Source of the DNA: Olivibacter sp. SDN3
Lineage (GTDB): Bacteria; Bacteroidota; Bacteroidia; Sphingobacteriales; Sphingobacteriaceae
Direction of reading: 5' to 3'
Assembly (NCBI RefSeq): GCF_014334135.1
Contig: NZ_CP060497.1
Location: 2,232,001-2,296,000 of the forward strand
Length of the DNA: 64,000 bases
The notes beneath the pieces are model-generated. The model saw nothing but the letters and a program-made list of their open reading frames with translations, was not told where the DNA came from and made no database searches. Every line of letters starts with the position of its first letter. The stretch's first letter is position 1. Below are positions 25,172 through 47,877 of this stretch, piece after piece. The position numbers were made by a program, and so were the translations under genes.

Positions 25172-25202
25172 ATAAATGTATTCAGCCTAAAGGGATGTAA
25201 AT

Positions 25203-25247
25203 AAAAAACGGGAGCTTGCGCAATTATTGCGCAGGCTCCCGTTTTTT
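25203..25247 (+). terminator. Strong intrinsic terminator after the DUF4394 gene
   Basis: A near-perfect stem of about 20 bp. Outer arms ACGGGAGC / GCTCCCGT, inner arms TGCGCAA / TTGCGCA and a 3-nt loop are flanked by A6 on the left and T6 on the right, so it could work in both directions. Confidence 0.92.
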
Positions 25248-25365
25248 ATTTGTCTTTAAAGTTGTTGTTTTTGTGTGTTTTTGGTGTTTTTGTTACATGA
25301 TTTTTAATAAAAAGGCTGTTTTAATCGTTGTTTTATAAAGTTTTATGTGTTTTTTTTGATTTTTG

Positions 25366-25397
25366 TATTGCAAATATCAATTTGATGTATAAATTTG
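25366..25397 (+). promoter_or_regulatory. Candidate Bacteroidota sigma-ABfr promoter for the susC/susD pair
   Basis: A perfect -7 box TAAATTTG at 25390-25397 has a TATTG at 25366-25370 as a weak -33 element, 19 bp away. The predicted start of transcription is near 25404, giving an untranslated leader of about 40 nt before the susC ATG at 25446. The surrounding 200 bp is unusually T-rich on this strand. Confidence 0.45.
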
Positions 25398-25445
25398 ATT
25401 TAAAAAAACTCTTTTTCAATCAAAAACAACCAAATCGACGAACAT

Positions 25446-28478: not shown

Positions 28479-28488
28479 AAGAAAGAAA

Positions 28489-29856: not shown

Positions 29857-29889
29857 TACCCAAGAGAGCCTCTAGATTTACCTAAAATG

Positions 29890-29944
29890 AGCTGTCCAGA
29901 AGTGGCTGTTGTAGAACTAGCCACTCTTGGACAGCTTCTTTTTT
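29890..29944 (+). terminator. Intrinsic terminator after the susC/susD pair
   Basis: Outer arms AGCTGTCCA (29890-29898) and TGGACAGCT (29928-29936) and inner arms AGTGGCT / AGCCACT form a long interrupted stem. A TTCTTTTTT tail follows. Confidence 0.88.
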
Positions 29945-30035
29945 ATACTGCAAATTTAAATTTTGGTATTTGAACTTTTTGAAGGCTCAACAATTAAACG
30001 GCTGTTTTTATCCCCGATCGCTAAGTAATAGAAAC

Positions 30036-30917: not shown

Positions 30918-30935
30918 GACTATATTAATAAATGA

Positions 30936-32516
30936 TCATTCTTTTTCATCCAATAAATCCTGTATGATGTCGCGATAACTCCTTTCCTGATGTACCTGTA
31001 ATTTTTTTTGCTTACGTCGGTATGCTTCCTCTAAACCTTGATAAAGACTGTAACACATGATCAATAGGATAATAGCAAAAGGCAGGCCGGCAATAATAAC
31101 CGCAGTCTGTAGGGCTTCCAATCCGCCACCCCATAAAAGCACAATAGCGATGATACCCTGTAAAAATGCCCAAAATATGCGCTGAATTACTGGGGTTTGT
31201 GGAGCATTGCCTGAAGTAATGTTGTCTACTACCAGCGCGCCCGAATCGGAGGAAGTGATAAAAAAGAATGCTACTAGCAGAATGGCCAGCACGGAGAGTA
31301 AGCCTGTCCACGGTATTTTTTGTAAGAAAACGAACAAGGCTGTAGACAGATTGTCTTTCACTGCAGTGACCAAGCTGCTATCCCCGTCAAGGATGAAATG
31401 TAGTGCTGTACCACCAAAAATAGTCATCCACAAGAGCGTAATCAGTGCTGGAGCAAGAAGAACACCTAACACAAATTCTCTTACGGTTCGTCCTTTGGAT
31501 ATGCGTGCAATAAAGCTACCCACAAATGGTGACCAAGCGATCCACCAGGCCCAATAAAATACAGTCCATTTGTTTTGCCATCCGCTATCGCTATAAGCAT
31601 CGTTCCACGTACTTATTTCAATTAAATCGGCCAGGTAAGCTCCCGTGTGCTGAAAATAACTCTTCAGCAGAAAAACAGAAGGACCCAGGCAAAAAACCAA
31701 AAGCATCAATACCAATGCCATGATCATATTCCCCTGACTTAGCAGCTTAATACCCTTGTCGAGACCAGATACCACTGATAATGTCGCTATGGAAATGACA
31801 ACAAGAATGAGCCAGGCCTGTAGACTAATGGATATATCCCAACCGAATAGAAAGTTGAGTCCGGCATTCATCTGCTGCACACCTAAGCCCAGAGAAGTAG
31901 ACAAGCCAAAGATGGTAGCTATAACAGAAAAAATATCGATAATGTGCCCCCACCATCCATGAATCCGTTCACCCAGAAAGGGGTAGAATAACGAGCGGAA
32001 GGTAAGTGGAAGTTTGCTGTTAAAAGAGAAAAAGGCCAATGCCAATCCTACCAGTGAATAAATGCCCCAAGCATGTAGCCCCCAATGTAAACTAGTAAAT
32101 TCCATAGACTGCATGGCCCTGACCGCGGGGTCTGCTGTCGGTCTGGGTGGTTCCGAAAAGTGAGATACAGGCTCCGCTACACTAAAGAACATAATGCCTA
32201 TGCCCATACCAGCACTGAACAGCATGGCAAACCAGGCTAAAGTGCTGAACTCAGGTTCGGCATGATCTCCTCCTAAGCGAATGTTCCCATATTTGCTAAA
32301 AGCTAGGTATAGGCAGTAAATCAATATGAAGTTAACCGCTAAGATAAAAAACCATCCTAAATTATCGGTAATGGCCAACTGGGCACTGGCGAACCATTCA
32401 TCTATCGATTCCTGAAAGAATAAGCAGAAACCTATGCTCGCAATTATGAATGATAACGATGTGTAGAAGACAGGTCTGTTTACTACCAATCTGAAGGACG
32501 TAATATTTTTTAGCAT
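30936..32516 (-). CDS. BCCT-family betaine/choline/carnitine-type transporter
   Basis: A 526-aa inner-membrane transporter with about 12 membrane helices. Family hallmarks are [18 protein letters not shown], in place of the usual GMGIG..F..(A/G)EP, and the tryptophan-rich signature [20 protein letters not shown] followed by [16 protein letters not shown] carriers import trimethylammonium compounds with Na+ or H+. The C-terminal tail is charged ([16 protein letters not shown]), as in osmosensing members. The frame can be extended to a TTG at 32543; ATG 32516 gives a normal N-terminus. No betaine-synthesis genes adjoin, so uptake as an osmoprotectant is the simplest role. Confidence 0.93.
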
Positions 32517-32540
32517 AGTGAGTGATTTGCTTCGATGGTA

Positions 32541-32575
32541 CAAAATATACGAAAATCATTATTGGAGCAACAAAA
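32541..32575 (-). promoter_or_regulatory. Candidate promoter of the BCCT/Usp operon
   Basis: Read on the minus strand, a TTTTGTTG (32575-32568) could be the -33 element and TATATTTTG (32549-32541) the -7 box, 18 bp apart, with the BCCT ATG at 32516. The -33 lies in one arm of an inverted repeat, CAACAAA-N11-TTTGTTG (32568-32592), which could be a regulator site. Confidence 0.35.
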
Positions 32576-32686: not shown

Positions 32687-33850
32687 TTAATTTATTTCAA
32701 GTTCATCTTTTGTCGGTAATGTCGAAAATGGATGATGAGGTTCTGTTTGATACCAAAACGCAACAGAACTGATGTCTGATTGCTGCGTGCGATACATCAG
32801 ATCGTTTTTGAGACCAAGATCCTGAATAGTTACTTTGAGGTCTTTATCGAAACGAATGGGATCCATAATGTGCCAGCGATACATGCCGAAACGCTGCTGG
32901 GATTGATATACACCATCAGGTTTAATAACTTGATGTAAGCCGGCATAGGCTGTGGAGAAGGGAACATACTGACCTTCCACTTCAAAACAATAAGAGCCCC
33001 CGAAATAGTCTTCTGTACCTGTTCCGCTGATGGTAGGGAAGGCGCTGTCGCCATCGAGATAAAACTTGACTTCTCCTTCACCCCACCAGCCTTTGTTATT
33101 GGTGCCCCAAGCAATGTACGTGCCTACATAATGGCCTTTACCTTTGATATCTGTTACAATGGTATGCAATGCTTTCTCGGTTGGGTTTGACCGCTGGAAC
33201 TGGGCATGGAAATAGGCGGCGTCAGTCGGAACTTCCGTTAGGGTATAGTCGATTTGGTAAAACAAAACCATCTGCTCAGTAGCTATGTTTTCTACAGTTA
33301 CCCTGCACTTTTTCCGAAAAGGCATCGGCCAGTAGCAGTTGAACGCACTTCCAGGGTTAACGGTTACCGGTATAGAATTTAGGTGTGCGTATTGACTCCA
33401 ACCCATGCCGAAGAAATCACCTAGCGGACACTCTACCGACGGAGCTTCTTCTCCATCCCAATATATCCGAAGGATGGAAAAACGCCAATTACCCGTAGCT
33501 GTCATCCAGATATGTTGAATAGCTCCCGGGCCTTCCATATCAGCGATAGTGAACGTCTCACCGGACTCGATTTTGATATACGGATTAAGTTTCCACCCCT
33601 GTCCTAAATGTTTAGCGGAAGGGGCATTATTGGCTCGGTTTCTATGCACGCTGTCGGCTAAAGTGGCTTTGGCTCCATCACCCTTACCTCCTGTGAAGTT
33701 CTCAGGGGTAATGGACCTTGTTTTTGCGTCTGATAAACGGTAAATGTTACCCATGTTTAATTGGAGGCCATCGAATGGATAAGACTGCCGTGCCCAACTA
33801 AATGAATAGGCTATGAGGTATAAAAACATGACAGAAAATAAAGCTTTCAT
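32687..33850 (-). CDS. GH172-family (DUF2961) glycoside hydrolase, secreted
   Basis: A 387-aa protein with a signal peptide (about 1-20) and a DUF2961 domain across the rest. Signatures are NMGNIYRLSDAKTRSITPEN, GPGAIQHIWMT, CPLGDFFGMGW, WWGEGEVKFYLDGD (about 255-268) and GTGTEDYFGGSY (276-287). The Glu residues near 258-260 and at 280 are the candidate catalytic pair. Characterised GH172 enzymes act on furanosides: difructose dianhydride I and alpha-D-arabinofuranosides. They assemble as trimers or larger. The gene follows a PhyH-type gene by 42 bp on the same strand. The substrate is probably an arabinofuranose- or fructofuranose-containing glycan. Confidence 0.88.
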   Translation of the reverse strand: MKALFSVMFLYLIAYSFSWARQSYPFDGLQLNMGNIYRLSDAKTRSITPENFTGGKGDGAKATLADSVHRNRANNAPSAKHLGQGWKLNPYIKIESGETFTIADMEGPGAIQHIWMTATGNWRFSILRIYWDGEEAPSVECPLGDFFGMGWSQYAHLNSIPVTVNPGSAFNCYWPMPFRKKCRVTVENIATEQMVLFYQIDYTLTEVPTDAAYFHAQFQRSNPTEKALHTIVTDIKGKGHYVGTYIAWGTNNKGWWGEGEVKFYLDGDSAFPTISGTGTEDYFGGSYCFEVEGQYVPFSTAYAGLHQVIKPDGVYQSQQRFGMYRWHIMDPIRFDKDLKVTIQDLGLKNDLMYRTQQSDISSVAFWYQTEPHHPFSTLPTKDELEIN

Positions 33851-33892
33851 AAATATAGATCTACATCGTACTCATCAAATAATTACTATATG

Positions 33893-34789
33893 CTATTGGC
33901 TTAACGCGGATTCTGGGTTTAACAATGGAAAGAATTGGCCTTGCATTTTTTCTCCTTTGTGGATTATGGGGACGCCTTGTAATACCTCTTCATTGCTGTT
34001 GGATAGGGTGCCATCGGCAAAAACATTTAGTACAAGGGCCCGGCGTGAACGGTCGGAAGTGTTGGCGTACGATCCATGCACGAGAAGTGGGTGATGAAAG
34101 GTTCCATATCCTTGCTTCATGACTATTGGGATAGGCTGAAAAGCCTGCTTTTGCTGATCATCGAGGTAGTCGAAAAGACCTTCCATATCTCCTGCTAGCT
34201 CTGGCTTGTCTAAGAGACCCCATTTATGGCTTCCGGGAACATAGTAGAGACAACCGTTTTCGGTACTGGCGTCGTCTAAACCCATCCAGCAGGTGAGGTG
34301 TTGCATGGGTACGGTACGCGTCCAGTAGGAATAATCCTGATGCCAAGCTACGACACCGCCGTGCTGTGCCGGTTTACAAAAAAGCTGATCATGCCAAAAC
34401 CGTATCCTTTGCCCGTTCAATAACTGTTTTGCTGCCACGACAAAAGCAGGGTTCCACAGTACGTCGTGGAAACCGGGACTTATACGCCAAGCGCCAAGGG
34501 CGTGGAAAAGTATAGCATTGGGGTCTGTCGACTCATTGGAGTTGAATTCATAAAATAGCTGGTTGCCGGGATGCGAAGGGTCGGTTATTGCTGCAAGCTC
34601 GTTATTCAGTGCCGCTACCTGTTGATCATTCAGCAGCTTGATATTGCTGAGATAGCCATATTCATGAAAGAAATCAACTTGCTCCTGGGTCAAACGGTAC
34701 TGCTCCCAATCTTTTGGGCTTTGGGGCCATTGGAATAAATCGGTTATTTGTTCGTGATAGTGGGAAAGATCTTTTGCTGTTGTCTTCAT
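33893..34789 (-). CDS. Phytanoyl-CoA dioxygenase (PhyH)-family Fe(II)/2-oxoglutarate oxygenase
   Basis: A 298-aa soluble protein of the PhyH group. The iron ligands are H150 and D152 (AWHQDYSYW) and H238 (HPLLVHGS); R249/R250 is placed to hold 2-oxoglutarate. All three ligands are present, so it should be active. There is no signal peptide, so it is cytoplasmic. Bacterial members hydroxylate varied small molecules; the substrate cannot be told. It is divergent from an AraC regulator (240 bp apart) and upstream of the GH172 gene, so it may handle a released sugar or an attached group inside the cell. Confidence 0.87.
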   Translation of the reverse strand: MKTTAKDLSHYHEQITDLFQWPQSPKDWEQYRLTQEQVDFFHEYGYLSNIKLLNDQQVAALNNELAAITDPSHPGNQLFYEFNSNESTDPNAILFHALGAWRISPGFHDVLWNPAFVVAAKQLLNGQRIRFWHDQLFCKPAQHGGVVAWHQDYSYWTRTVPMQHLTCWMGLDDASTENGCLYYVPGSHKWGLLDKPELAGDMEGLFDYLDDQQKQAFQPIPIVMKQGYGTFHHPLLVHGSYANTSDRSRRALVLNVFADGTLSNSNEEVLQGVPIIHKGEKMQGQFFPLLNPESALSQ

Positions 34790-35029
34790 CTTTTACTTTC
34801 AGTTTTAATCCAGGTTCCGCGTTAGGAGTTCAAACGAATGCGGATTTTGGTGTTAATAGATCGTCAAATTTAAATGCCTGTAAGGCTTTTGTATTTGCTG
34901 ATCTTAACAAAAGAGTAACCTATTTTGCATTAAATTGTAGGTGTTTGTTTCAAAAAATATAAAATTAAGGTATATTTACGCAAGGCAATTTGCCCTAACC
35001 AATTCCAAATACCTAACATAGTTTCTTCG

Positions 35030-35887
35030 ATGAAAGCGTTATATGAGGCAATATCACCGTTGGAATCAAATTCCTTTAATGTGTTTTTACAGCAAAAAAA
35101 AGAGTTTGATTACCCTTGGCATTATCATCCTGAATTTGAAATAACCTATATTTTGTCGAGTAGAGGAGTAAGATATGTAGGAAATAATTTTGATGATTTC
35201 TATGAAAACGATCTGGTAATGGTGGGGTCTAATTTGCCACATTGCTGGAAGAATACAGGAAAACAACCTAACCATGCCAGTGCCATTGTTATTCAATGGA
35301 GGGCTGATTTCCTAGGAGAGGACTGGTTTCAGGCAAAAGAGTTTGAGGCTATTGGGAAGTTAATAGCGCTTTCGGAGAAAGGAATAAGGTTCAGAGAAGA
35401 GATCGCCCTTCAATTAAGACCATTAATGCTTGAAATGATCGATCTTCCCCCCTTTAAGCGCTTAATAACATTGCTGGAAATTATGCACCGATTAGCAGAA
35501 ACAGCTTCTTATACTGTTTTATGTGAAGAAGGTTTTAAACATATACTCAACTATCGCGAAAATGAACGGGTAAATACCATCCTTCAATTTGTGAAAAATA
35601 ACTATGCAACGAAGATTACGCTTTTGGAAGTAGCGGCTCAGGTATGCATGACAGAAGAGGCCTTTTCGCGCTTTTTTAGTAAGATCATGAAGAAACCTTT
35701 CTTTTCTTTTCTTAATGAATATAGAATAAATGTAGCCTGTAAGCTGTTGATAGATACCGACCTACAGGTTGCTCAAATTTGTTATACCTCCGGTTATGAA
35801 AGCCTTCCTTTTTTTTATAGGCAGTTTAAGAAATTTAAAGGGTGTGCACCGCAAGTTTATCGTATACAGTATCGCAAAATCTGCTAA
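35030..35887 (+). CDS. AraC-family transcriptional regulator
   Basis: A 285-aa regulator. The N-terminal cupin-like sensing domain (FDYPWHYHPEFEITYILSS; LPHCWKNTG) carries the HxH..E pattern of sugar-sensing AraC proteins. The C-terminal two-HTH domain is complete: ITLLEVAAQVCMTEEAFSRF, then LQVAQICYTSGYESLPFFYR and the end FKKFKGCAPQVYR. It is divergent from the PhyH/GH172 genes and converges with the serine hydrolase gene, leaving 4 bp between stops. It likely controls one or both flanking operons in response to a sugar; the ligand is not known. Confidence 0.93.
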   Translation: MKALYEAISPLESNSFNVFLQQKKEFDYPWHYHPEFEITYILSSRGVRYVGNNFDDFYENDLVMVGSNLPHCWKNTGKQPNHASAIVIQWRADFLGEDWFQAKEFEAIGKLIALSEKGIRFREEIALQLRPLMLEMIDLPPFKRLITLLEIMHRLAETASYTVLCEEGFKHILNYRENERVNTILQFVKNNYATKITLLEVAAQVCMTEEAFSRFFSKIMKKPFFSFLNEYRINVACKLLIDTDLQVAQICYTSGYESLPFFYRQFKKFKGCAPQVYRIQYRKIC

Positions 35888-35891
35888 GCAT

Positions 35892-37130
35892 TTATTCATC
35901 GTCTTTTAGAAATGAACCATAAGCCATAGCCTTGAACACCGACTGTATTTCTTCCCAAGAACTGTTGGGGTGTTTTTGCGTATAAATCAGGCCAATCATT
36001 TCATTGTTGGGATCTACCCAATAATGCGTTCCAAAATAACCGCCACCGGCATATGTGCCTTCGTTCCACGGGCCTACCACACTTCCTTTTTTGGTAATTA
36101 CACTAAAGCCGAAACCTATACGGTCTGGACCACCGAGGAAAACGTCGGGAGCCTGATCGGAAGTCATCAAACGGACGCTATTCGGACTAAGGAGGCGAAA
36201 TTCTTTCTGTCTCCCTCCTTGAAGCAAGGCTTGTAAAAAGACGGCATAATCTGCAATAGTACTACACAGGCCCGCTCCGCCCGAATAATAGGTTCCCGTT
36301 GTTACCAATGGATAATGCTGATAGTTGTTTTTTTGGAGCATGGTTTCTGCTTGTTCATTTTCGGTGTATAACGTCACTAATCGCTCGTGTTTTTGCTTGG
36401 GTAAGTAAAAATGCGTGTCCTGCATCCCCAAAGGTTCAAATATCCGTTCACGGAAAAAATCGTCCAAAGACTTACCGGAGATGCATTCGATGAGGTAGCC
36501 TAAAACATCAATACTTAAACCGTAAGTAAAGGCTTCTCCTGGTTCGTGCAGGAGTGGAAACTGAGCCAATGCTTTCATTTTATCGCCGAGTACAATGCGG
36601 CGTTTTTCAAAACCCGCCGGGATGTCTGCCTTGGCATAAATCGCTTTAGCTTCTTCACTTCCGATACCTGCATACCCGATACCGGAAGTATGTGTGAGCA
36701 GATGTCTAATGGTAATTTCCTTTTTTGCGGGAACGGTAGTGTAACTGGTGTCTGGGGCATGATAGGATTTAAGTACCTCCATATGTTTAAATGCTGGAAT
36801 ATATTTAGCGATAGGGTCATCTAACAGTAGTTTACCTTCTTCATACAGCATCATGATGCCCGTGCAGGTAATCGCCTTGGTTTGGGATGCAATGCGAAAA
36901 ATATGATCGTGCTGTAAAGGAGTCTGTCGTTCTCTATCGCTGAAACCGATGCTGGCCTGATAAATAATTTTGCCTCTTTTCAGCACTAGTGCGTTTATCC
37001 CAGCAACTTGGTTGCTATCTACGTATTTTTGCAGGGCTTGCGTAATACGATGTGCTAACACTTCCTGCGCAAAAGAAGCTGGAGCAGCTACGAAATAAAT
37101 ACAGACGATAATTAAAATTCTTAGGTACAT
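35892..37130 (-). CDS. Secreted serine hydrolase of the class C beta-lactamase/esterase (EstB-like) family
   Basis: A 412-aa secreted protein with a signal peptide of about 21 residues (APASFAQ). The S-x-x-K motif is S82-Q-T-K85, and the Y-G-L-S motif is at Y203-S206. The HLLTHTSG segment (143-150) and GGGYFGTHYWVDP near the end are typical of EstB-type esterases; the Lys-Thr-Gly box is replaced by GTHYW. It is more likely an esterase than a beta-lactamase. It is the last gene of the susC-led minus-strand operon (6 bp after the preceding gene), which suggests removal of ester groups from the glycan in the periplasm. Confidence 0.85.
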   Translation of the reverse strand: MYLRILIIVCIYFVAAPASFAQEVLAHRITQALQKYVDSNQVAGINALVLKRGKIIYQASIGFSDRERQTPLQHDHIFRIASQTKAITCTGIMMLYEEGKLLLDDPIAKYIPAFKHMEVLKSYHAPDTSYTTVPAKKEITIRHLLTHTSGIGYAGIGSEEAKAIYAKADIPAGFEKRRIVLGDKMKALAQFPLLHEPGEAFTYGLSIDVLGYLIECISGKSLDDFFRERIFEPLGMQDTHFYLPKQKHERLVTLYTENEQAETMLQKNNYQHYPLVTTGTYYSGGAGLCSTIADYAVFLQALLQGGRQKEFRLLSPNSVRLMTSDQAPDVFLGGPDRIGFGFSVITKKGSVVGPWNEGTYAGGGYFGTHYWVDPNNEMIGLIYTQKHPNSSWEEIQSVFKAMAYGSFLKDDE

Positions 37131-37136
37131 ATTGGT

Positions 37137-38324
37137 TTAATATTTAACCCGTATAAAACGTGGTCTACAATGATTAGGATGTTGGTATAATTTATTTTCA
37201 AAATCAAAGGCGTTGACATTGTAGCTGATCAGTAGCTCTCCCGGTGTTGAAAGATGTGGATGTGCTTTGGCATTATACGTGTAAAAGTCAATGTCTTCAT
37301 AAATTTCGGGTGTTTCATAAACTTTCTTGAAAGGAAAGAATGGTCCAATAGGTGTTTTGGCAACCTGTATGGCAATTGAAGGCGAGTTGGTGTCTACCTG
37401 AAAAGCGGCGATAACACGACCATCTTCCATAAAACTTACACTCATCTCATTCGATATTCGGTCGGTGATCGCAGCGGATTCGTCAATTGATGAGTTCCAC
37501 GACTGACCATCCCAGTAGGTCCAGGCTTGGAAGTCTTCAAAAAGCTCTTCCTCTACTCTTGCTACCAGCAGCTCTTTATTCGTTCCACGGATGCCATAAA
37601 CATAAATATATCCATCGGGTTGAGGTGCTCCTGCACCTGTTGTGTTAGCCAAAACGTTGATGCCGAAAACTGATTTACCTTTTTTGCCGATGTGAAACAG
37701 CGGAGTATCCATTTGCCGCTGCTCGTTGAAGGGAGGTTGACTACCTTTGGGTATAGCGATGAGATTGACACCAACATCTTCGAAGGGGAATGCACCTTCA
37801 GGAAGATTTCTGATGCGGTAGGCGAAGATGTAAATGGTGCTGTCTAAGCGATGGTTGAAGAAACCATCGCCCAGCCAGTAATACTCATTTACCTGGGCTT
37901 CCGGAGTATGAGGTTCGAATACCGATCGGGCTTTTCCGTCGTCATCTTTTGCCCAGAAGAAATCCATTTTTTCTTTGTCAGGATCGCCACCGGTCAGATA
38001 AGCAATAGAGTTGTGTACCATCTCCCATCCTTGCTGTAAGGAATCGTCTTCAATGTCTCCGATAATCGTATCGCTAAACCAGAAGAGCGTTTTTGTTTGC
38101 TGGGCTTCACCTGGTCTTTCTACGCCGTTCAGGGGTACGCAGTAGATACCATCTGCGCCGATCCAACCTTTTTTGTTGAGGAGCAGATTACTCCACTCAG
38201 GCGACGATTCGGCTATTACTTGTGTTTTTGCTGCCTCTTGCTCGGTTGTCTGTTGGCATCCCGTACAAAAAACTATTAGATATAAAGTGCTGTACAGGTA
38301 TGCTTGGAATAACGTCTGTTTCAT
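37137..38324 (-). CDS. Surface lipoprotein of an uncharacterised propeller-like family, copy 2
   Basis: A 395-aa lipoprotein (lipobox FCTGCQQ, Cys at about 23). Recognisable blocks are GADGIYCVPLNG, FWFSDTIIGD, YYWLGDGFFNH, RQMDTPLFHIG, GAPQPDGYIYVYG, TDRISNEMS and GELLISYNVN, ending in RPRFIRVKY. Regular beta-strand blocks with conserved Asp/Glu suggest a beta-propeller like GH43 or GH32. Families such as DUF5005 or DUF4185 (GH183) come to mind, but which applies cannot be settled by eye. It is a tandem paralogue of the gene at 38333-39577. It is in the susC operon, so glycan hydrolysis or binding is likely. Confidence 0.65.
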   Translation of the reverse strand: MKQTLFQAYLYSTLYLIVFCTGCQQTTEQEAAKTQVIAESSPEWSNLLLNKKGWIGADGIYCVPLNGVERPGEAQQTKTLFWFSDTIIGDIEDDSLQQGWEMVHNSIAYLTGGDPDKEKMDFFWAKDDDGKARSVFEPHTPEAQVNEYYWLGDGFFNHRLDSTIYIFAYRIRNLPEGAFPFEDVGVNLIAIPKGSQPPFNEQRQMDTPLFHIGKKGKSVFGINVLANTTGAGAPQPDGYIYVYGIRGTNKELLVARVEEELFEDFQAWTYWDGQSWNSSIDESAAITDRISNEMSVSFMEDGRVIAAFQVDTNSPSIAIQVAKTPIGPFFPFKKVYETPEIYEDIDFYTYNAKAHPHLSTPGELLISYNVNAFDFENKLYQHPNHCRPRFIRVKY

Positions 38325-38332
38325 TGTCGAGT

Positions 38333-39577
38333 TTATTTGAACTTTACTTTAATAAATCGTGGGCGGTACAGATCTGGATGTGTTTTAATGTCGTTCCAGA
38401 AATCGAGGGAATTGACATTATAACTAATGAGTAGCTCGTTTTTCTTCGAAAGGTTATAATGTGTTTTGGCATTATATACGATGAAGTTTTTATTGATTTC
38501 GCTCTCTTTGCAGTCCCACAGCTCTTTGATAGGTCCAAATGGTCCTACGGGACTGAGGCCAATGCGTAACCCTACTTTTGACCCCATACCATCCGTCTGA
38601 AAAACGAGTGCATAGCGGCCGTCGGGAAGCGGCGTCAAGCTAAGCTCATTGGATGCTCTATCTGTAATATGGGCCACTTGATTCATATCGGTATTCCATT
38701 CCTGCCCATCCCAAAAGCGCCACGCATCAAAGTTTTCAAAATCTTTAGGTTTTACACGGGCTGCCATCACGTTCTTTTCCTTTCCACGTACGCCATATAC
38801 GTATACATAACCATCGGGCTGTGGCGCTCCTGCTTTTTCCGTGTTTACAAAAATACCCGCTCCAAACGATCCGTAGTCACTTTTTTCTTCTCCTACCTGT
38901 AGAAAAAACGGTGTATCCATTTGACGTTGATCCGTAAATGGAGGTGTACTGCCGTTGGGAATGGCGATCAGTGTATTACCAACCTCTTCAAATCCGAATA
39001 CGGCTGCACCGGTGTTTCGGATGCGATATCCAAAAATGTAGGTGGTATTGTCAAGCTCATGGTTGACGAAGCCGTCGCCCAGCCAATAGTACTCGCCCTT
39101 TTTCGTATTGGGGGTACTAGGTACAAAAATTGCATTTGGTTTTCCCTCTTGGTCTTTCGCCCAGTGGAATTGTATGTTTTCTTCTTTGGGTTCTGTCCCT
39201 TTTAAAGTGGCTACCGAGTTGTTGATCATTACATAACCCGGTTGTAGCTGACCATCTTTAATTTCTCCCAGCATGGTGTCGCTGAAGAGTAGAAGAGTTT
39301 CGGTATCCTTAGCAGATCCTGTGGTATCTACGCCATTCATGGGGATGGCAAAAATACCATCTGCACCGAACCATCCGTTGTTCCGTTTGAATAGATTGGT
39401 CCACTCCTGCGCCTCTTCCACGGTAAATTGAAGATTAACGGTATCTGTTAATAAGGCCTCCTCATCTGCTGAGTTAGGGTTTTGTTGTTGCTGGCAACTT
39501 ATGGTCAGGAATACCAAAGAAAGGAAGAATAAAAAGCTTTTTGTTCGATTTTTAGTGTGTATGGGTTGCTGGTTCAT
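38333..39577 (-). CDS. Surface lipoprotein of an uncharacterised propeller-like family, copy 1
   Basis: A 414-aa lipoprotein (lipobox LTISCQQ, Cys at about 28). It shares the same blocks with its neighbour: GADGIFAIPMNG, LLFSDTMLGE, YYWLGDGFVNH, RQMDTPFFLQ, GAPQPDGYVYVYG, TDRASNELS and ELLISYNVN, ending RPRFIKVKFK. Roughly half of the residues match between the copies. The acidic positions in FSDT, WLGDG, QMDTP and SNE are kept in both, so both are probably functional. The ribosome would pass to the next copy across only 8 bp. It is the first gene after susD, a place often held by a surface endo-acting enzyme. Confidence 0.65.
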   Translation of the reverse strand: MNQQPIHTKNRTKSFLFFLSLVFLTISCQQQQNPNSADEEALLTDTVNLQFTVEEAQEWTNLFKRNNGWFGADGIFAIPMNGVDTTGSAKDTETLLLFSDTMLGEIKDGQLQPGYVMINNSVATLKGTEPKEENIQFHWAKDQEGKPNAIFVPSTPNTKKGEYYWLGDGFVNHELDNTTYIFGYRIRNTGAAVFGFEEVGNTLIAIPNGSTPPFTDQRQMDTPFFLQVGEEKSDYGSFGAGIFVNTEKAGAPQPDGYVYVYGVRGKEKNVMAARVKPKDFENFDAWRFWDGQEWNTDMNQVAHITDRASNELSLTPLPDGRYALVFQTDGMGSKVGLRIGLSPVGPFGPIKELWDCKESEINKNFIVYNAKTHYNLSKKNELLISYNVNSLDFWNDIKTHPDLYRPRFIKVKFK

Positions 39578-39671
39578 AATGTATTCTTTTAAGGTCTATA
39601 ATGTTTCGGGTAATTTAAGTTTTATAAATCTTGGATGAAAGAACTTTGGGTTCGAAATGCTCATATTAAAG

Positions 39672-41174
39672 TCAATAACCGTTAGCAGGCAGATGCTCAT
39701 TCAGATCACGTTCTTCTAGTGGTATAGGAAAGAGGTAGTTTCTGGCAGCTGGTGTTACGCCAGGTTTTGCTATGGGTACGGCGGTTTCTAATGTTCCTGT
39801 ACGCACCAAATCAAACCAACGGTGTCCTTCTGCTACAAATTCCATTCGACGTTCTTGAAGTATAGCTTGTCGGATAGCGTCACGTCCCAGATTGGTGTAG
39901 TCTGGTAGTGTGTTTTGGTAAGTTGATCCATCAAAACGGGCTCTTCTACGAATTATGTTCAGGTAAGTGAGCGCAGCTTCCGTCTGATTGAGCTCATTGG
40001 CCGCTTCTGCATAGGTTAACAGTACATCGGCATAGCGTATTACCGGAAAGTCTGCTTCAGTACCTCCAGCATTGGGTTCGGCAAGGCTATCCCAATATTT
40101 TCTGATATATGGCATGATAGAGGTTGTAGATCCATCCTGATTATTGATTTCCGTTATAAATGTCACTGCTCGTCTTCTATCATTCGGTTCAAAAACATCG
40201 TATAGCTGTTGCGTGGGATATTGCCAGCCTTGTGCATTAACTCCAGGGATCATTCCAGTAAGTTCTCGGGGAAGGAGGCGGATGTTCTGTTGTCCATCCT
40301 CCCAGAAAATAATAGCTCCACCAGCAAATCCAAAACCGACGGAAAAAACAGCCTCTTTGCCTCCACGGTTGCCGATGCTGAATGCTTGGGCGTAATCATC
40401 CCACAAACCATATTCATGCCTCGGCTCATTGATAATTTCAAGGGCTTTGGCCGCCGCTTGTTCCCAGTTCGCTAACGTGAGGTATACTTTGGCTAATAAG
40501 GCTTTTGCTGCACCAGTGGTTGCCCTGCCTCTGCCGTTACCCGCTGGGTAGCTAAAGGGGAGCGCTTCGGCTTCCTCGAGGTCTGCTATAATCTGTTGAT
40601 AGATAATTTCTACAGCTGCTACCTCAGGAACGAGAGGCTCTTCTTCCTGTAGAACAAGGGGTATACTACCAAACATACGCACCATGTTGAAATACAGTAA
40701 AGCACGTAAAAACCGAGCTTCTCCTATCAGTCGGGTACGTAGAGTGCCATCCATGTCAATTGCCGGAATGCGCTCAATGGCAATGTTAGCAACGGTTATC
40801 GCTTTGTAATGGATACGCCATATCTCCAGTAACGCACTATTCTGGGAGGCATACGTGAAGTTTGCCAATTGATCGAGCGCTGGAGCTCCGGGTTGTTGGT
40901 TATGGAGCTCATCGGAAGCTAAACCGGCTGCAACCCAAAAGGAGCTATGATAAACCCCAGCAAAGGAGCCTTCATTGATAGCATTTAAGTAGGCATAAAT
41001 CGAATTAACTGCAGAAATAGCGTCGTCTGCAGTAGTATAGAAGTTAGCCGTGGAGACAAAATTTTTGGGATCTTCCTCCAGAAATTTTTTACAACCGGAA
41101 TATAGCAAGCCAAATGCCAGGATTAAGCCTGTTTTATAAAGATTTTTCAGCGTATTCATAGCGTGTAATTGCAT
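39672..41174 (-). CDS. SusD/RagB-family nutrient-binding lipoprotein
   Basis: A 500-aa surface lipoprotein. The lipobox is LLYSGCKK (Cys at about 28). The fold is marked by FLRALLYFNMVRMFGSIPLV, a TPR-like AAKALLAKVYLTLANWEQAA, and the C-terminal ERRMEFVAEGHRWFDLVRTG and LFPIPLEERDLNEH. ATG 41159 (MNTLKNLYK) would give a cleaner signal sequence than ATG 41174; both are in frame. It lies 5 bp after the susC stop, so the pair is co-transcribed, and it caps the SusC barrel for glycan capture. Paralogous to, but clearly different from, the other two SusD proteins of the window. Confidence 0.95.
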   Translation of the reverse strand: MQLHAMNTLKNLYKTGLILAFGLLYSGCKKFLEEDPKNFVSTANFYTTADDAISAVNSIYAYLNAINEGSFAGVYHSSFWVAAGLASDELHNQQPGAPALDQLANFTYASQNSALLEIWRIHYKAITVANIAIERIPAIDMDGTLRTRLIGEARFLRALLYFNMVRMFGSIPLVLQEEEPLVPEVAAVEIIYQQIIADLEEAEALPFSYPAGNGRGRATTGAAKALLAKVYLTLANWEQAAAKALEIINEPRHEYGLWDDYAQAFSIGNRGGKEAVFSVGFGFAGGAIIFWEDGQQNIRLLPRELTGMIPGVNAQGWQYPTQQLYDVFEPNDRRRAVTFITEINNQDGSTTSIMPYIRKYWDSLAEPNAGGTEADFPVIRYADVLLTYAEAANELNQTEAALTYLNIIRRRARFDGSTYQNTLPDYTNLGRDAIRQAILQERRMEFVAEGHRWFDLVRTGTLETAVPIAKPGVTPAARNYLFPIPLEERDLNEHLPANGY

Positions 41175-41179
41175 TATTA

Positions 41180-44100
41180 TTAAAAACCAATATTTAATCC
41201 GAAAAGCAAGGTTTTGGCCATGGGGTAACTGCCGTAATCAGCCCCAATGAAGGTGGTGCTTTGGCCATAGAAATTCACCTCTGGGTCGTAGCCTTTATAC
41301 TTCGTCCAAGTAAAAAGGTTAGTTCCACTTACATATACGCGCAAGCTTTTCATTCGAAGATTTCGAAGCAGATTTTCGGGTAGCGTATACCCCAGCACGA
41401 TGTTTCGCAGACGGATATAGGAAGCATCTTCAACAATGGTCGATGAGAAGGTGTTGACGTCAAGACTGCCGCTTGCTAAAGCCCTTGGGTATAGGTTACT
41501 AGGGTTGTCCGGTGTCCATCGGTTGAGTGCCGCCTCGGCTAGCGCGTTTTGTTCGCCATTGAAGTTTTGCAGTTCGAAGGAATTGAAGTTAGCCAACTGG
41601 TTACCTTGGGAACCCTGAAAGAAAAAGCTGAAATCAATGTTTTTATAAGTAAAAGAATTGTTGATACCCCAGGTGAAATCTGCTTGAGCATTTCCGATGA
41701 GTGTACGGTCATTCTCGTCAATTACGCCGTCATCATTGATGTCGCGGTACCTACGATCGCCCGCCCTGGCTCGAGAGGCAGGATTGGGGGAAGAGGCCTC
41801 TTGCCCTCTCAATACGGCGCTACTGGCGGCCTCTTCATCTGTCTGGAATATACCGTCGAAAATATATCCGTAGAAGGAACCAATGGGTTCACCTACCCGT
41901 AAAATACTCCAACCGGGGGCAAAGCCTCCCTGTAAAATATCATCATCGCTGTTGAGCCTGGTAACCTGATTTCTATTGACAGAAAAATTGATCGCAGTAT
42001 TCCAGTTTAGTTTTCCGGTGGTGTTTACCGTCCGAATGTCTAAGTCGAAGCCTTTATTCTCCACGTTTCCAATGTTGAGAATCGATGTAATAAAACCGCT
42101 GGTAGACGGGATGGGGGTAGAGAGCAGTAGGTCGGTGGTTTTTTTATGGTAGTAGTCGGCCGTAATGGTGACTCTGCTCTGAAAAAGAGAGGCGTCTAAG
42201 CCAATATCTAGCTGTTGGGTACTTTCCCATTTTAACCGGTTGTTTGCATAGTTGAGCGGTTCTTTACCTTTATAAACTTCACTGCCTTGAGAACTGTTGA
42301 AGACACCCTCGCCAAAAGGGCCTACCAAGGGAATGGATTGATAAGGTGCGATCGCCTGGTTTCCGATCAATCCATAACTTGTTCTTACCTTAAGGTCGTT
42401 GAATACATTTACATTTTGCATGAAGGTTTCATCGGAGAGTCGCCAGGCGAATGCTCCTGAAGGAAAGAAACCATATTTATTTTCACTTCCAAATTTTGAA
42501 GAGCCGTCCATCCTGCCACTGAGCGTGAAAAGATATTTGTCATCCAGTGTATAGTTGATGCGGCTAAGGTAAGATACCATGCTCCAGGAGGATTCTCCAT
42601 TGGCCGGCGGTTGATGATTAAGTCCTGATCGGATATCGTGATAACCAGTGCGGTTATCAGAAAAACCAAAAGAGAGCATGTTGCTGTTTTCTTGAAAAAA
42701 CTTTTGTATCATATTACCCGCTACAATGTTTAGCTGATGTTTAGTGTTGATGGTTTTATTATAAGTGATCGTATTTTCGTTGAGCCAGGTTAATGCTTGA
42801 CTATTACCAATCCCTACTTCACCCTCACTGCTATGTGCCCGTTTTAGGAAGTTAGGCACAAAGGAATTCTCTTTGGTAAAATATTGGTCGATACCAAAGC
42901 TAGTTTTAAATTCCAGCCCTTCAATGATTTTAAAATTCGCAAAAGCATTTCCCAATATTCTGGAGCTTTGGCTGACGGTTTCCATCTCGCGGTCGGCCAC
43001 CGGATTGCTTAACCCCCTGCCTCTGTCGTCTTCAAAGGTGTAACCCCCAGGGCCATTGGGATCATAAATTGGTTGTACCGGATTAAAAAGGAGGGCAGAG
43101 GTTGTGATGCCGGGCAATAAAGTGCCTAAGTTGGTCAATACACCGCTGGTTGCTAATCGGCTATAGGTAAAGTTGGTCCCTACAGCAAGTCTTTCCGTTA
43201 ACTGTCGGTTTAGATTGGCCCGGAAAGAATAGCGGTCATAGTCAGAGTTTGCAATAATTCCCTTTTGCGAGAAGTAACCTCCGGAGAGCGCATACTGTGT
43301 TTTGGCATCGCCACCGGAAAGCGACGCCTGATAGGTAGCCATTGGCGCATCTCTTAGAATCTCATCTTGCCAATTGGTGCCTTCTCCTAGATTCTGAGGG
43401 TTTACATACACAGGAGTGGCATTTGCGTTGAGCTGGGCTTCATTTACCAGGTCTGCAAACTGGGCAGCATTGAGCACTTCCACTTTATTGGATATACGTT
43501 GCATACCGTAGTAACTTTCGAAGTTAATGGCAGAAGTACCCTCTTTCCCTTTTTTTGTAGTAATCAATATCACTCCATTGGCGCCTCTCGAGCCATAAAT
43601 GGCAGAGGCTGACGCATCTTTTAGAATTTCGATTGATTCGATATCATTAGGATTAATTGCCGATAAAGGATTGATGCTGGGGCTTCTATTGGTGCCCGCT
43701 CCAATACCTTCGCTATTGACCAACATACCGTCTATCACATACAGAGGCTCGTTACCTGCATTGATGGAACTGGTTCCCCGAATACGGATAGAAGTTTGTC
43801 CACCCGGTTGCCCCGAAACCTGCGTAACTTGTACCCCAGCAGCGCGCCCCTGCAATGCCTGGTCGATGGAGGTGGCAGGGATTGCCTGGAGTTCTTCAGC
43901 TTTAACAGAAGAGACAGACCCGGTAAGGTCACTCTTTTTAGCGGTACCATATCCTATAACCACAATTTCGGAAAGCTCTTCCGATTGAGCGGCCTGCATC
44001 ACGATCGAAATCGTGGTCTGGTCAGCTACGTCAATCTCTTGGCTATTAAAACCAATGGAAGTGAAAACCAATGTAACGTCGTCCTTAGGCAGATTAATGG

Positions 44101-44335
44101 TGTAATATCCGTTGTCGTTCGAGGTGGCTCCCCTGGCCGTGCCCTTAACTTTAATAGTAACCCCCGGCAGAGGAGTTCCATTGTTCGCTGTTATCCTGCC
44201 GCTAATTATTCTTTCCTGCTGTAATATACCGCTGAACGAAGAAACGGAGTGTCGGGGAAGCGCTATTGCATAACTGCTGCCTAGTAGCAAGTAGCAGCTA
44301 AAAAACAGCCATTTCATTTGTTGATTTTTTCTCAT
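41180..44335 (-). CDS. SusC/RagA-family TonB-dependent outer-membrane transporter
   Basis: A 1051-aa outer-membrane protein. A signal sequence (about 1-26) is followed by a short Ser-rich stretch, then the carboxypeptidase-regulatory-like domain (about 43-125, ISGRITANNGTPLPGVTIKV). The plug starts at IVVIGYGTAKKSDLTGSV (about 124-141) and has the signature LKDASASAIYGSRGANGV. The barrel follows and ends in Phe (GLNIGF). There is no STN domain. It heads an operon of five genes (susC, susD, two paralogous lipoproteins, serine hydrolase) with gaps of 5, 94, 8 and 6 bp. Confidence 0.95.
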   Translation of the reverse strand: MRKNQQMKWLFFSCYLLLGSSYAIALPRHSVSSFSGILQQERIISGRITANNGTPLPGVTIKVKGTARGATSNDNGYYTINLPKDDVTLVFTSIGFNSQEIDVADQTTISIVMQAAQSEELSEIVVIGYGTAKKSDLTGSVSSVKAEELQAIPATSIDQALQGRAAGVQVTQVSGQPGGQTSIRIRGTSSINAGNEPLYVIDGMLVNSEGIGAGTNRSPSINPLSAINPNDIESIEILKDASASAIYGSRGANGVILITTKKGKEGTSAINFESYYGMQRISNKVEVLNAAQFADLVNEAQLNANATPVYVNPQNLGEGTNWQDEILRDAPMATYQASLSGGDAKTQYALSGGYFSQKGIIANSDYDRYSFRANLNRQLTERLAVGTNFTYSRLATSGVLTNLGTLLPGITTSALLFNPVQPIYDPNGPGGYTFEDDRGRGLSNPVADREMETVSQSSRILGNAFANFKIIEGLEFKTSFGIDQYFTKENSFVPNFLKRAHSSEGEVGIGNSQALTWLNENTITYNKTINTKHQLNIVAGNMIQKFFQENSNMLSFGFSDNRTGYHDIRSGLNHQPPANGESSWSMVSYLSRINYTLDDKYLFTLSGRMDGSSKFGSENKYGFFPSGAFAWRLSDETFMQNVNVFNDLKVRTSYGLIGNQAIAPYQSIPLVGPFGEGVFNSSQGSEVYKGKEPLNYANNRLKWESTQQLDIGLDASLFQSRVTITADYYHKKTTDLLLSTPIPSTSGFITSILNIGNVENKGFDLDIRTVNTTGKLNWNTAINFSVNRNQVTRLNSDDDILQGGFAPGWSILRVGEPIGSFYGYIFDGIFQTDEEAASSAVLRGQEASSPNPASRARAGDRRYRDINDDGVIDENDRTLIGNAQADFTWGINNSFTYKNIDFSFFFQGSQGNQLANFNSFELQNFNGEQNALAEAALNRWTPDNPSNLYPRALASGSLDVNTFSSTIVEDASYIRLRNIVLGYTLPENLLRNLRMKSLRVYVSGTNLFTWTKYKGYDPEVNFYGQSTTFIGADYGSYPMAKTLLFGLNIGF

Positions 44336-44748
44336 GTATTTTATTTTAAAAGGTCGTCAATTGGAGCAAAAAAGCATCACCGAACTCCTTGTGGCCGGAG
44401 GAGAGTCAACGGGCTGATGACGCCTTTGCATATAAAATGTATATGATCTAAGCTGCTATTTAAGCCAGTAATGTTTTTTACTTACATGATGTTATAATTG
44501 ATATTTCAAAGCTACCGTACGCTTTTTTAGCAGTGTTTGCCTTTTTTGATAAATTATTAACTTATTTTGTGTGGCTTTAGGGAGAAGTTCCTACAGCATA
44601 GATTACGTTATTTCCGCTATATAAACAGATTCAAACGGTAGAGGAGAAAACAAAAATGAATTTACCTGTTTTGTCACCAATGAATAGATGATCCCGATAG
44701 AATTTAAGTTTCGTTTAGGATTTTTCTGATTGTAAAAAAAAATAAAAA
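44336..44748. other. Divergent promoter region of the susC-led operon and the GH43 gene
   Basis: A 413-bp gap without a gene. On the minus strand, TAGCTTTG (44514-44507) matches the TAnnTTTG -7 box and would give a leader of about 165 nt for susC; no good -33 lies at the usual distance. Nothing comparable was found just before the GH43 ATG, where the sequence is A-rich (GTAAAAAAAAATAAAAA). No repeat or clear hairpin was seen. Confidence 0.4.
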
Positions 44749-46311
44749 ATGAACCCGATTGTTAAACTATTTGTTGTTTATATTTTTTGTTGTTTTATGT
44801 TTGAAGGCGCAGTCGTACACGGTCAGCGTTTAGGAATAAACCCAGCTGTACCGGGAGACTTTGCCGATCCTTCGGTAATCCGTGCAGGCGAGTTGTATTA
44901 TGCTACTGGAACTTCGTCCGAGTGGGCACCGCACTTTCCTTTGTTCAAATCCTCAGATCTTCAGGAATGGGAACAGGCGGGCTACCTATTGATGGAGACC
45001 CCAGAGTGGGCAAGTGCCTCTTTCTGGGCACCCGAATTGTTTTATCACCAAGATATGTTCTACCTCTACTATACTGCCAGGCGTAAGTCAGATGGCGTTT
45101 CTTGCATAGGGGTAGCTACCAGTCCTTCAATGGATCAACCGTTTAAAGACCATGGTGTGCTGATTGCTTATGGTAGTGAAGCTATTGATGCATTTGTGTT
45201 TGATGACAATGGTCAATTGTATATCACCTGGAAAGCTTACGGGCTGGATGAGCGTCCTATCGAGATTCTGGGAGCGTCCCTATCTGCTGATGGCTTGAAA
45301 CTTAACGATGATACATTTACACTGTTGAAGGATGAACAGGGGATAGGTATTGAAGGGCAATGTTTGGTGAAAAGGAATGAATATTATTATCTTTTGTATT
45401 CCGCTGGCGCCTGCTGTGGTTTAAAGTGCGATTATAATGTAAGAGTTGCCCGTTCAAAAAGTGTGACTGGGCCTTACGAAGATTTTGAAAAGAATCCCAT
45501 CTTAGCGGAAAATAGTGAGTGGCAATGCCCTGGACATGGTACACTCGTGAGCACGCCTGAAGGAAAAGATTATTATATGTACCATGCCTATCGAAAAAGC
45601 GACAATGTTTTTACCGGGCGACAGGGCCTGTTGGATGAGTTGTATTGGGAGGAGGCTAGTGAATGGCCTTATTTTGATGTTGACGGAAAATCTTTAGGTA
45701 TTATAGCAGAAGATCTTAAGAAAAAAGAATGGAGCGATGACTTTACCGGCAAGGGATTGGCGGATCTCTGGCAATGGGATTTCAGACATGCAAGTCCTAA
45801 AACGTCAATCAATGAGGGCGTGTTACTTCTATCAGGAGAGACAGATTCCGAGAATCTGGTAGGGACAGCGCTGACTATCCGACCAGCTTATGGAGAATAC
45901 GCTGTTACAACGGAAGTAACCAATCAAAATGCGTCGCTGAAGTCCTTGGTAGTATATGGTGATATGGATCAGGCGATAGGTGTGGGAGTGCGTGATGGAC
46001 ATGTAGAATTATGGGAAGTCAAAGATGGAAAAAGACAAGTTTTTCAGCAGAAGCAAATTGCACAGGGATCTCCTGTACAGTTGAAAATTGAAGCGCAGGA
46101 AGGAGCAATTTATCGGTTCTTTTACAAACAGCAAAACCAGCCTAATTGGACGGAATTAAAAGATGTAGCAGAATATCCTTATAAGGCCAGTTTTTTGCCG
46201 CCGTGGGATAGAAGTCCGCGTCCGGGATTGGTACATCAAGGAGAGTTAGCCGATCATGCATCTTTTTCAAATTTTACCATTACTTATGGAACGGTATCTG
46301 GAGTTTTATGA
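44749..46311 (+). CDS. GH43-family glycoside hydrolase with C-terminal beta-sandwich, secreted
   Basis: A 520-aa secreted enzyme with a signal peptide ending near VVHGQ (about 25). The five-bladed propeller carries the three GH43 residues: base D40 (FADPSVI), pKa modulator D147 (AIDAFVF) and acid E202 (IEGQCLV). A second domain (about 325-520) starts at WSDDFTGKGLADLWQWDF and resembles the beta-sandwich attached to many arabinofuranosidases and xylosidases. GH43 members mostly cleave alpha-L-arabinofuranosides, beta-xylosides or galactofuranosides. It is divergent from the susC-led operon, so it is the + strand arm of the locus. Confidence 0.9.
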   Translation: MNPIVKLFVVYIFCCFMFEGAVVHGQRLGINPAVPGDFADPSVIRAGELYYATGTSSEWAPHFPLFKSSDLQEWEQAGYLLMETPEWASASFWAPELFYHQDMFYLYYTARRKSDGVSCIGVATSPSMDQPFKDHGVLIAYGSEAIDAFVFDDNGQLYITWKAYGLDERPIEILGASLSADGLKLNDDTFTLLKDEQGIGIEGQCLVKRNEYYYLLYSAGACCGLKCDYNVRVARSKSVTGPYEDFEKNPILAENSEWQCPGHGTLVSTPEGKDYYMYHAYRKSDNVFTGRQGLLDELYWEEASEWPYFDVDGKSLGIIAEDLKKKEWSDDFTGKGLADLWQWDFRHASPKTSINEGVLLLSGETDSENLVGTALTIRPAYGEYAVTTEVTNQNASLKSLVVYGDMDQAIGVGVRDGHVELWEVKDGKRQVFQQKQIAQGSPVQLKIEAQEGAIYRFFYKQQNQPNWTELKDVAEYPYKASFLPPWDRSPRPGLVHQGELADHASFSNFTITYGTVSGVL

Positions 46312-47088: not shown

Positions 47089-47877
47089 TTATCCGTTTCT
47101 TTTTGAACGATAAATGACGCTTTGAATTTTTTGTAGAAAACCATCTTTTCGACGTGTTGCTACAGGTAGCTCATGGCCATCTTGGAGAATAACGGTGCCC
47201 CCCTTTCCTTTATGATAACGAAGAACATATTGGAGGTTGACGAGGTGCGACTGATGGATACGATAAAAATGATGGGGGGATAGTAGATGTTCAAACTCCT
47301 TGATGGTTTTAGCCACCATGATATTTTTTCCATTAACGAGAAATATCGTGGTATAATTTACATCGCTCTGGCAACGGGTAATCTCTGTTATATTCAGTAA
47401 TTCAAAACCCTGTAAGGAGGGAACCATTATCTTCGAAAGCCCTTGCTTAAACAAAGATAAATTGTTAAATAAAAGCTCAAGTTGTGCATGGTGCTGCTTG
47501 GCTTCGTATAAATTTTTTCTTTTTTCCACAGCCACGATCAAATCCTCCGGATCGATCGGTTTAAGCAGGTAATCCAGGGCGCTGAATTTAATTGCCTGTA
47601 GGGCATACCGCTCGTAAGCTGTAGTAAATATCACCGAAAAACTGGGTTGATCAAAACGCCGTAACAACTCGAAACCAGTATTTTCGCCTATTTCGATGTC
47701 AAGAAATATCAAATCCGGTTGAGTGGATTGTATCGCGTTGAATCCTTCCTCAAACTGTTGGGCATGCCCTAATATTCGGATATCGTCTCCGCAGTGATGC
47801 GCCAAAAGCTGCGTCAATCGTTCGATGGCGTGTGCTTCATCATCAATTATTAACGTACGTATCATACAATCGCTCAT
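47089..47877 (-). CDS. LytTR-type response regulator
   Basis: A 262-aa regulator. The receiver domain (about 5-125) has acidic D12/D13, phosphoacceptor D60 (LIFLDIEIG), T85/T86 and K106 (LLKPIDP). The C-terminal LytTR DNA-binding domain (about 155-260) includes YRIHQSHLVNLQYVLRYHKG and LPVATRRKDGFLQKI. The start ATG at 47877 overlaps the stop of the histidine kinase gene in ATGA, so translation is probably coupled. A second in-frame ATG lies at 47865. LytTR regulators of this type bind as dimers at promoters of cell-surface or secreted-protein genes; no target is evident here. Confidence 0.93.
   Translation of the reverse strand: MSDCMIRTLIIDDEAHAIERLTQLLAHHCGDDIRILGHAQQFEEGFNAIQSTQPDLIFLDIEIGENTGFELLRRFDQPSFSVIFTTAYERYALQAIKFSALDYLLKPIDPEDLIVAVEKRKNLYEAKQHHAQLELLFNNLSLFKQGLSKIMVPSLQGFELLNITEITRCQSDVNYTTIFLVNGKNIMVAKTIKEFEHLLSPHHFYRIHQSHLVNLQYVLRYHKGKGGTVILQDGHELPVATRRKDGFLQKIQSVIYRSKRNG

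Follow-up and report, generated by a model that had tools for sequence, protein, structure and literature searches.

A candidate D-arabinan utilization locus with two GH183-like DUF4185 proteins in Olivibacter sp. SDN3

Which glycan is served by a furanoside-directed gene cluster in Olivibacter sp. SDN3? The cluster lies in the window analyzed here, a stretch of 64,000 nucleotides (C1:2232001-2296000, contig NZ_CP060497.1) of a 6.1 Mb genome. It brings together a SusC/SusD pair, two DUF4185 proteins (D1 and D2) and an enzyme of glycoside hydrolase family 172 (GH172), the last adjoining in a separate unit. An original prediction from the sequence had proposed a locus directed at furanosides, with mycobacterial-type D-arabinan or plant arabinan as substrate. 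The furanoside direction is supported by a GH172 resembling ExoMA1, by two GH183-like genes in the susC operon and by a second locus of D-arabinose type elsewhere in the genome, which encodes a GH172 paralogue, and because of these same features D-arabinan fits better than plant arabinan, which is less likely. On balance, we conclude that this is probably a polysaccharide utilization locus (PUL) that targets a glycan with D-arabinan and probably with mannose too, such as the lipoarabinomannan or arabinomannan of mycobacteria-like Actinomycetota. The mannose link changes the likely glycan relative to the original prediction; if the substrate is D-arabinan, a mannose-bearing form is the likelier one. 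Mycobacterial cell walls are characterized by D-arabinan, for which few cleaving enzymes have been described to our knowledge.

The DUF4185 profile (PF13810) scores 56.5 bits for D2 and 48.2 bits for D1, against a Pfam cut-off of 39.5; the E-values of the pair are 3.5e-15 and 1.2e-12. A predicted model of D1 (pLDDT 90.2, pTM 0.86) matches the fold of 4hbs with Z 34.2 (23% identity) and that of EndoMA1 with Z 28.2; the next entry reaches 20.2, and AraH2 of M. tuberculosis 19.0. D2 matches EndoMA1 by phmmer at 5.2e-06, in the C-terminal half only. In EndoMA1 two Asp and one Glu are essential, comprising a nucleophile Asp, an acid/base Asp and a third residue, Glu (PMC10509167). By alignment, not superposition, these correspond to D73/D100/E311 of D1 and D58/D85/E293 of D2, and D73, D100 and E311 are invariant in a 32-row alignment that includes both window proteins. 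Since the catalytic residues are kept and the D1 model has this fold, D1 and D2 resemble GH183 enzymes, judged by their sequences and the predicted D1 fold; both are likely lipoproteins.

The DUF2961 domain of the GH172 protein scores 319.8 bits (curated cut-off 27). Over nearly its full length the protein matches ExoMA1 at 385 bits (E 3.7e-114); the three other members with solved structures reach 149-158 bits. ExoMA1 is an exo-alpha-D-arabinofuranosidase whose Asn253 bars fructofuranosides (PMC10509167), and the catalytic Glu residues of the family member DgGH172c are E233 and E254 (PMC10115798). In alignment the window GH172 keeps both Glu and the adjacent Asp (E258, E280, D281). E258 and E280 are invariant in 16 of 16 aligned rows, and the remaining four of 20 (L088, L098, L100, L102; comparison loci carry L numbers and genomes G numbers) also keep both. 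In those four, GTGLED replaces GTGTED at a catalytic Glu (L088 gene at 9386-10576). The place of ExoMA1 Asn253 is taken by Cys288, a position counted from the printed alignment; Cys also stands there in DgGH172c and 4kq7, and Gly in alphaFFase1.

A second host locus (L088) at 0.72 Mb, about 1.5 Mb from the window, encodes a GH172 paralogue that is 64-66% identical and carries Asn at the Asn253 place. Alongside it are genes for DUF6786, L-fucose isomerase, an MFS transporter, ribulokinase, GH116, SusC/SusD, L-fucose dehydrogenase and a fuconolactonase-like protein. Three of these, the isomerase (TIGR01089), the kinase (TIGR01234) and the dehydrogenase (NF052481), score over their NCBIfam cut-offs, and the fuconolactonase-like protein falls below (291 vs 400 bits). 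Fucose isomerase and ribulokinase fit a conversion of D-arabinose to D-ribulose and on to D-ribulose-5-phosphate, so that by gene content the locus fits a D-arabinose-type route. Among 18 GH172 neighborhoods (the host paralogue and 17 chosen others; blastp at 1e-20), DUF6786 occurs in 11, fucose isomerase in six, an amidohydrolase in six, an FAA hydrolase in five and GH116 in three; because the reference proteins were taken from L088 and L098, these two are counted by construction. The host's two remaining, more distantly related DUF2961 loci (L089, L090) stand in other PULs.

The mannose link comes from the partners of D1 relatives. A single-protein scan of genome contigs with D1 gave zero matches, and an alignment-based scan yielded 291 relatives, the 80 best of them making up the named loci; a second set holds 20 order-level loci, and the genomes of the two sets overlap. 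D1 has GH92 in its vicinity in 41 of the 80 named and 11 of the 20 order-level loci, compared with 1/18 GH172, 0/8 GH43 and 0/10 PhyH control neighborhoods; the GH92 reference proteins were taken from two of the D1 loci. At a cut of >45% identity, SusC (relatives 55-65%) is found in 18 of the 80, SusD (51-65%) in 17 and D2 in 17, with all three present in 13 (L108-L114, L118-L120, L150, L163, L170). To this core the DUF4185 PUL of Rufibacter, Hymenobacter, Chitinophagaceae and Cyclobacteriaceae adds varied sets of ROK kinase, class I mannose-6-phosphate isomerase (the annotation given in Hymenobacter sp. DG25B), sugar MFS, SASA esterase, DUF4432, SDR, MR_MLE, lactonase and GH92. The window shares with it related SusC, SusD, D1 and D2 but, by blastp, is without ROK, mannose-6-phosphate isomerase, sugar MFS, SASA and GH92, and has a family VIII esterase-like protein (Bla) and GH172. 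The SDR, MR_MLE and lactonase genes were considered as a D-arabinose pathway and set aside, as their NCBIfam scores pick no sugar. Members of the DUF4185 clade with actinobacterial proteins have a GH38 alpha-mannosidase and an esterase alongside in L273, L275 and L277 (L274 and L276 encode proteins of similar length). Because an alpha-mannosidase adjoins DUF4185 of that clade as well, mannose and D-arabinan may go together. One DUF4185/mannose PUL (L270, NZ_CP010056.1 78322-98615) resides on a 169 kb Hymenobacter plasmid and, being plasmid-borne, may move between strains; a LytTR response regulator and histidine kinase pair trails it.

Removal of mannose and of alpha- and beta-D-arabinofuranose together with deacylases, as these partners suggest, would match the needs of lipoarabinomannan breakdown. 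D1 and D2 would make internal cuts in D-arabinan at the cell surface, and Bla could strip off chain-blocking acyl groups, succinate for example. SusC/SusD would then bring fragments in, the periplasmic GH172 would release terminal alpha-D-arabinofuranose, and the GH43 enzyme encoded beside susC might trim another furanoside. Free D-arabinose could be processed by the isomerase and ribulokinase of the second locus, presumably under common regulation.

A D-arabinan PUL is already known, since PUL42 of Dysgonomonas gadei pairs GH172 with DUF4185 on this glycan (PMC10115798); new are this branch of DUF4185 and its mannose link. As described there, PUL42 resembles the present system in joining GH172 (three copies) and DUF4185 enzymes in one locus, and in the use of a fucose isomerase on D-arabinan. 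Here, however, the isomerase is outside the window locus, the GH172 is nearer to ExoMA1 than to DgGH172c of D. gadei, and the DUF4185 pair stands on a branch apart from actinobacterial DUF4185, in a tree built without D. gadei sequences. The window locus may further differ in its family VIII esterase, PhyH and AraC. With the EndoMA1/ExoMA1/ExoMA2 system of Microbacterium arabinogalactanolyticum, as far as presented in PMC10509167, the host shares an ExoMA1-type GH172, the GH183-like D1 fold and catalytic residues, and a GH116 in its genome. Unlike EndoMA1, D1 is without room for a domain resembling a carbohydrate-binding module, its model aligning to EndoMA1 residues 6-326 only.

A tree of 48 rows places D1 and D2 in a 24-row clade (support 99/98). 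A separate 9-row clade (100/99) holds the DUF4185 proteins of Nocardia, Gordonia, Tsukamurella and Tateyamaria plasmids and of five other Bacteroidota loci. The tree has long branches, a midpoint root and rows without biochemically tested proteins. The spacing of the two Asp differs, at 27 residues in D1, 17-18 in five rows of the other clade and 18 in EndoMA1. D1 and D2 appear to come from a GH183-like branch whose enzymes look untested so far. A literature search, at the level of search results and mostly of freely accessible texts, found nothing on this DUF4185 branch or on a lipoarabinomannan PUL with GH92, and a tblastn search of phages with D2 gave zero matches. It is possible, though doubtful, that D1 and D2 represent a new endo-furanosidase family sister to GH183, acting on mannose-capped D-arabinan or on a linkage that no known enzyme cuts. 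Such a family would serve, with alpha-mannosidases, mannose catabolism and deacylases, a dedicated harvest of lipoarabinomannan across soil Bacteroidota, once on a Hymenobacter plasmid, and the adjoining GH172 would have an altered -1 pocket, with Cys in the window enzyme and Gly in that of G581. More generally, a branch with the endo-D-arabinanase fold that is common in Bacteroidota and coupled to the removal of mannose would offer new tools for dissecting lipoarabinomannan, and would point to mycobacterial envelopes as a common food of such Bacteroidota. A short list of proteins for expression results.

Among the loci compared here, DUF4185 is linked to GH172 in three places only: the window, contig C122 of G581 (same genus as G010), and Cesiribacter sp. 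SM1. In G581 the genes run on one strand in the order FAAH-DUF6786-MFS-SDR-amidohydrolase-SASA-GH92-DUF4185-Bla-DUF4432-SDR-MR_MLE-SGL-GH116-GH172, with gaps of at most 390 bp and 10 of the 15 genes confirmed by Pfam. Two short contigs of G534, carrying DUF4185-Bla and SGL-GH172-GH172, look like such a cluster split by assembly. In Cesiribacter sp. SM1, a PUL with D1 and D2 (L118) is followed on the same contig, ~21 kb from D1, by SusC-SusD-GH43-GH172-GH43-GH43 (L304), whose GH172 is the closest found (70%) and whose GH43 is 37% identical to that of the window. A rule that DUF4185-linked GH172 enzymes are always without Asn at the Asn253 place was tried and dropped, as the residue is Cys in the window and Gly in G581 but Asn in Cesiribacter and Asp in one of the two G534 copies.

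Several observations weigh against a D-arabinan locus with these enzymes. GH172 lies near D1 in none of the 80 named and none of the 20 order-level neighborhoods, some of which are cut by contig ends. D1-bearing genomes without such a GH172 number 14 of 28 in the order and 8 of 59 in the genus, and it is also missing from 15 of 24 genomes that carry DUF4185 and either lie outside the order or were reached via loci. Within a genus GH172 occurs in 51/59 D1-bearing genomes versus 45/90 others (odds ratio 6.4, p 4e-6), but a control GH43 gives a similar odds ratio (17/59 vs 6/90; 5.7, p 4e-4), so this co-occurrence is unspecific and was set aside as evidence. By blastp at 1e-20 the window is without GH92, GH116 and fucose isomerase. 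D1 is nearer to 4hbs than to EndoMA1 by profile (68.7 vs 36.3 bits) as well as by fold, and both DUF4185 proteins fall outside the clade with actinobacterial members. EndoMA1 Arg198 is located at subsites -3/-2 (PMC10509167), and D1 and D2 have no Arg at the aligned place; basic residues are nearby, in a loop of unsure alignment. In GH172, Asn or Asp, not Cys, stands at the Asn253 place in all 29 other order-level loci (L059-L087; the set has 38 other places, with loci for 29), and because Cys288 replaces these residues, the specificity of the window enzyme may differ.

These observations could mean that D1 and D2 cut another linkage of an alpha-mannose-bearing glycan, not arabinan, and that GH172 is a neighbor with its own job. 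Genes of the D1 type often stand beside GH92, class I mannose-6-phosphate isomerase and ROK kinase, with GH172 in none of the 80 and 20 neighborhoods; the two proteins fall in a separate clade, and the nearest solved fold is the uncharacterized putative hydrolase BACOVA_04882 (4hbs), which is named as a structural relative of EndoMA1 (PMC10509167). On the other side, the Asp/Asp/Glu triad is retained in both proteins, the G581 and Cesiribacter loci tie DUF4185 to GH172, and alpha-mannosidases also accompany the other DUF4185 clade; we consider this explanation rather unlikely. For BACOVA_04882 itself we know of no activity. Alternatively, the D-arabinofuranose glycan could be of non-mycobacterial origin; Gram-negative soil bacteria, for example, might supply it in their pili, lipopolysaccharide or exopolysaccharide. 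The D-arabinofuranose oligosaccharides of P. aeruginosa PA7 pilin are substrates of most GH172 and a subset of DUF4185 enzymes among those assayed in PMC10115798. The repeated alpha-mannosidase partners nevertheless fit arabinomannan better, making this origin quite improbable.

A locus for plant L-arabinan or fructan is very improbable. The best NCBIfam models of the GH43 are endo-1,5-alpha-L-arabinanases, though far below cut-off (90.1 vs 480 bits), and Cys288 is a smaller residue than the fructose-barring Asn of ExoMA1. DgGH172c, which has Cys there too, is nonetheless active on p-nitrophenyl-alpha-D-arabinofuranoside and arabinogalactan (PMC10115798), and the ExoMA1-like GH172, the DUF4185 pair and the fucose isomerase/ribulokinase locus all argue for the D-arabinan reading. 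GH172 also stands in GH43-rich PULs of Cesiribacter, Rufibacter and Litoribacter; those of Rufibacter (L305, L306) and Litoribacter (L307) are without DUF4185 and could be PULs for L-arabinan or galactofuranose, one GH43_31 enzyme being a galactofuranosidase (PMC10115798).

All nine open reading frames of the original prediction are present with the boundaries given in Table 1, and its families are borne out by profile search (DUF2961/GH172, GH43, PhyH, AraC-type helix-turn-helix). Its five-gene susC-led operon is right by layout: the order is SusC-SusD-D1-D2-Bla, with gaps of 5, 94, 8 and 6 bp, the three non-Sus genes being the two DUF4185 proteins and the esterase/beta-lactamase-fold protein. 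GH172 is outside this operon. It lies 42 bp behind PhyH, and the two form a unit of their own that diverges from AraC, with 240 bp between the PhyH and AraC starts. GH43 is divergent from susC, at a distance of 413 bp.

Table 1. Genes of the candidate D-arabinan locus, with window positions.
Feature	Position	Strand	Profile match and remarks
GH172 (DUF2961), putative periplasmic exo-alpha-D-arabinofuranosidase	32687..33850	-	PF11175 1.4e-95
PhyH-type Fe/2-oxoglutarate oxygenase	33893..34789	-	PF05721 3.4e-37; HxD at 150
AraC-type regulator with cupin domain	35030..35887	+	PF12833 1.4e-19, PF07883 2.3e-06
Bla, family VIII esterase/beta-lactamase-fold serine hydrolase	35892..37130	-	PF00144 1.2e-67; last operon gene
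D2, second DUF4185 protein	37137..38324	-	PF13810 over cut-off
D1, DUF4185, GH183-like propeller, putative endo-D-arabinofuranosidase	38333..39577	-	PF13810 over cut-off
SusD-like glycan-binding lipoprotein	39672..41174	-	PF07980 1.6e-38; SGC lipobox-like start
SusC/RagA TonB-dependent glycan importer	41180..44335	-	TIGR04056 5e-282; operon gene 1
GH43 enzyme with C-terminal GH43_C2-like domain	44749..46311	+	PF04616 2.6e-74; GH43_C2 just below cut-off

The nearest solved relatives of Bla are mostly named esterases, led by chain 7pp3 (1e-64), with Est-Y29 at about 1e-44. SxxK, the defining motif of family VIII esterases, is found at residue 82 (S82QTK), after a signal-peptide-like start, and a Bla-type gene also lies directly beside DUF4185 in L043, L158, L286 and L288. 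GH43 was at one point taken for an unrelated gene, GH172 and DUF4185 being found in 0/8 neighborhoods of its closer relatives. That idea was given up because in Cesiribacter and two Rufibacter a GH43 relative at 37% is found less than 3 kb away from GH172, and GH43 is probably a member of the locus. PhyH and AraC, also placed in the locus by the original prediction, belong there by position only: PhyH has an AraC partner in two of 10 neighborhoods and GH172 in none, and L229 and L230 have the divergent PhyH/AraC pair but no GH172, which does not fit the D-arabinan reading well. In L291 (G581:C157, 8214-15662), another GH172 and a PhyH 71% identical to that of the window are 5.4 kb apart, the sole hint of such pairing elsewhere.

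Other DUF4185 relatives occur in varied settings. The 3.9 Mb genome G046 has nine DUF4185 matches, in contexts with SASA, sulfatase, Bla and GH92. L236, L242 and L243 encode DUF5005/DUF4185-like proteins of 550-637 aa, with ricin-type lectin domains in L236 and L242 and with GH92 nearby in L242 and L243. On a Tsukamurella plasmid (L271, 952-5421), a DUF4185 gene sits amid WXG100 and EsaB/YukD genes of the type VII secretion kind. Proteins of ~690 aa with no Pfam match are encoded in the DUF4185 cluster L275 (7495-9567) and the GH172 cluster L098 (16630-18711), and are possible novel glycosidases. Within the window, scanned from 23639, a DUF4394 protein and then a second SusC/SusD pair occupy 23639-29856, and no glycosidase was found among the genes at 23639-32543. 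Directly past the locus, at 47089-49916, is a pair of LytTR response regulator and TPR histidine kinase, of the kind that trails the PUL on the Hymenobacter plasmid.

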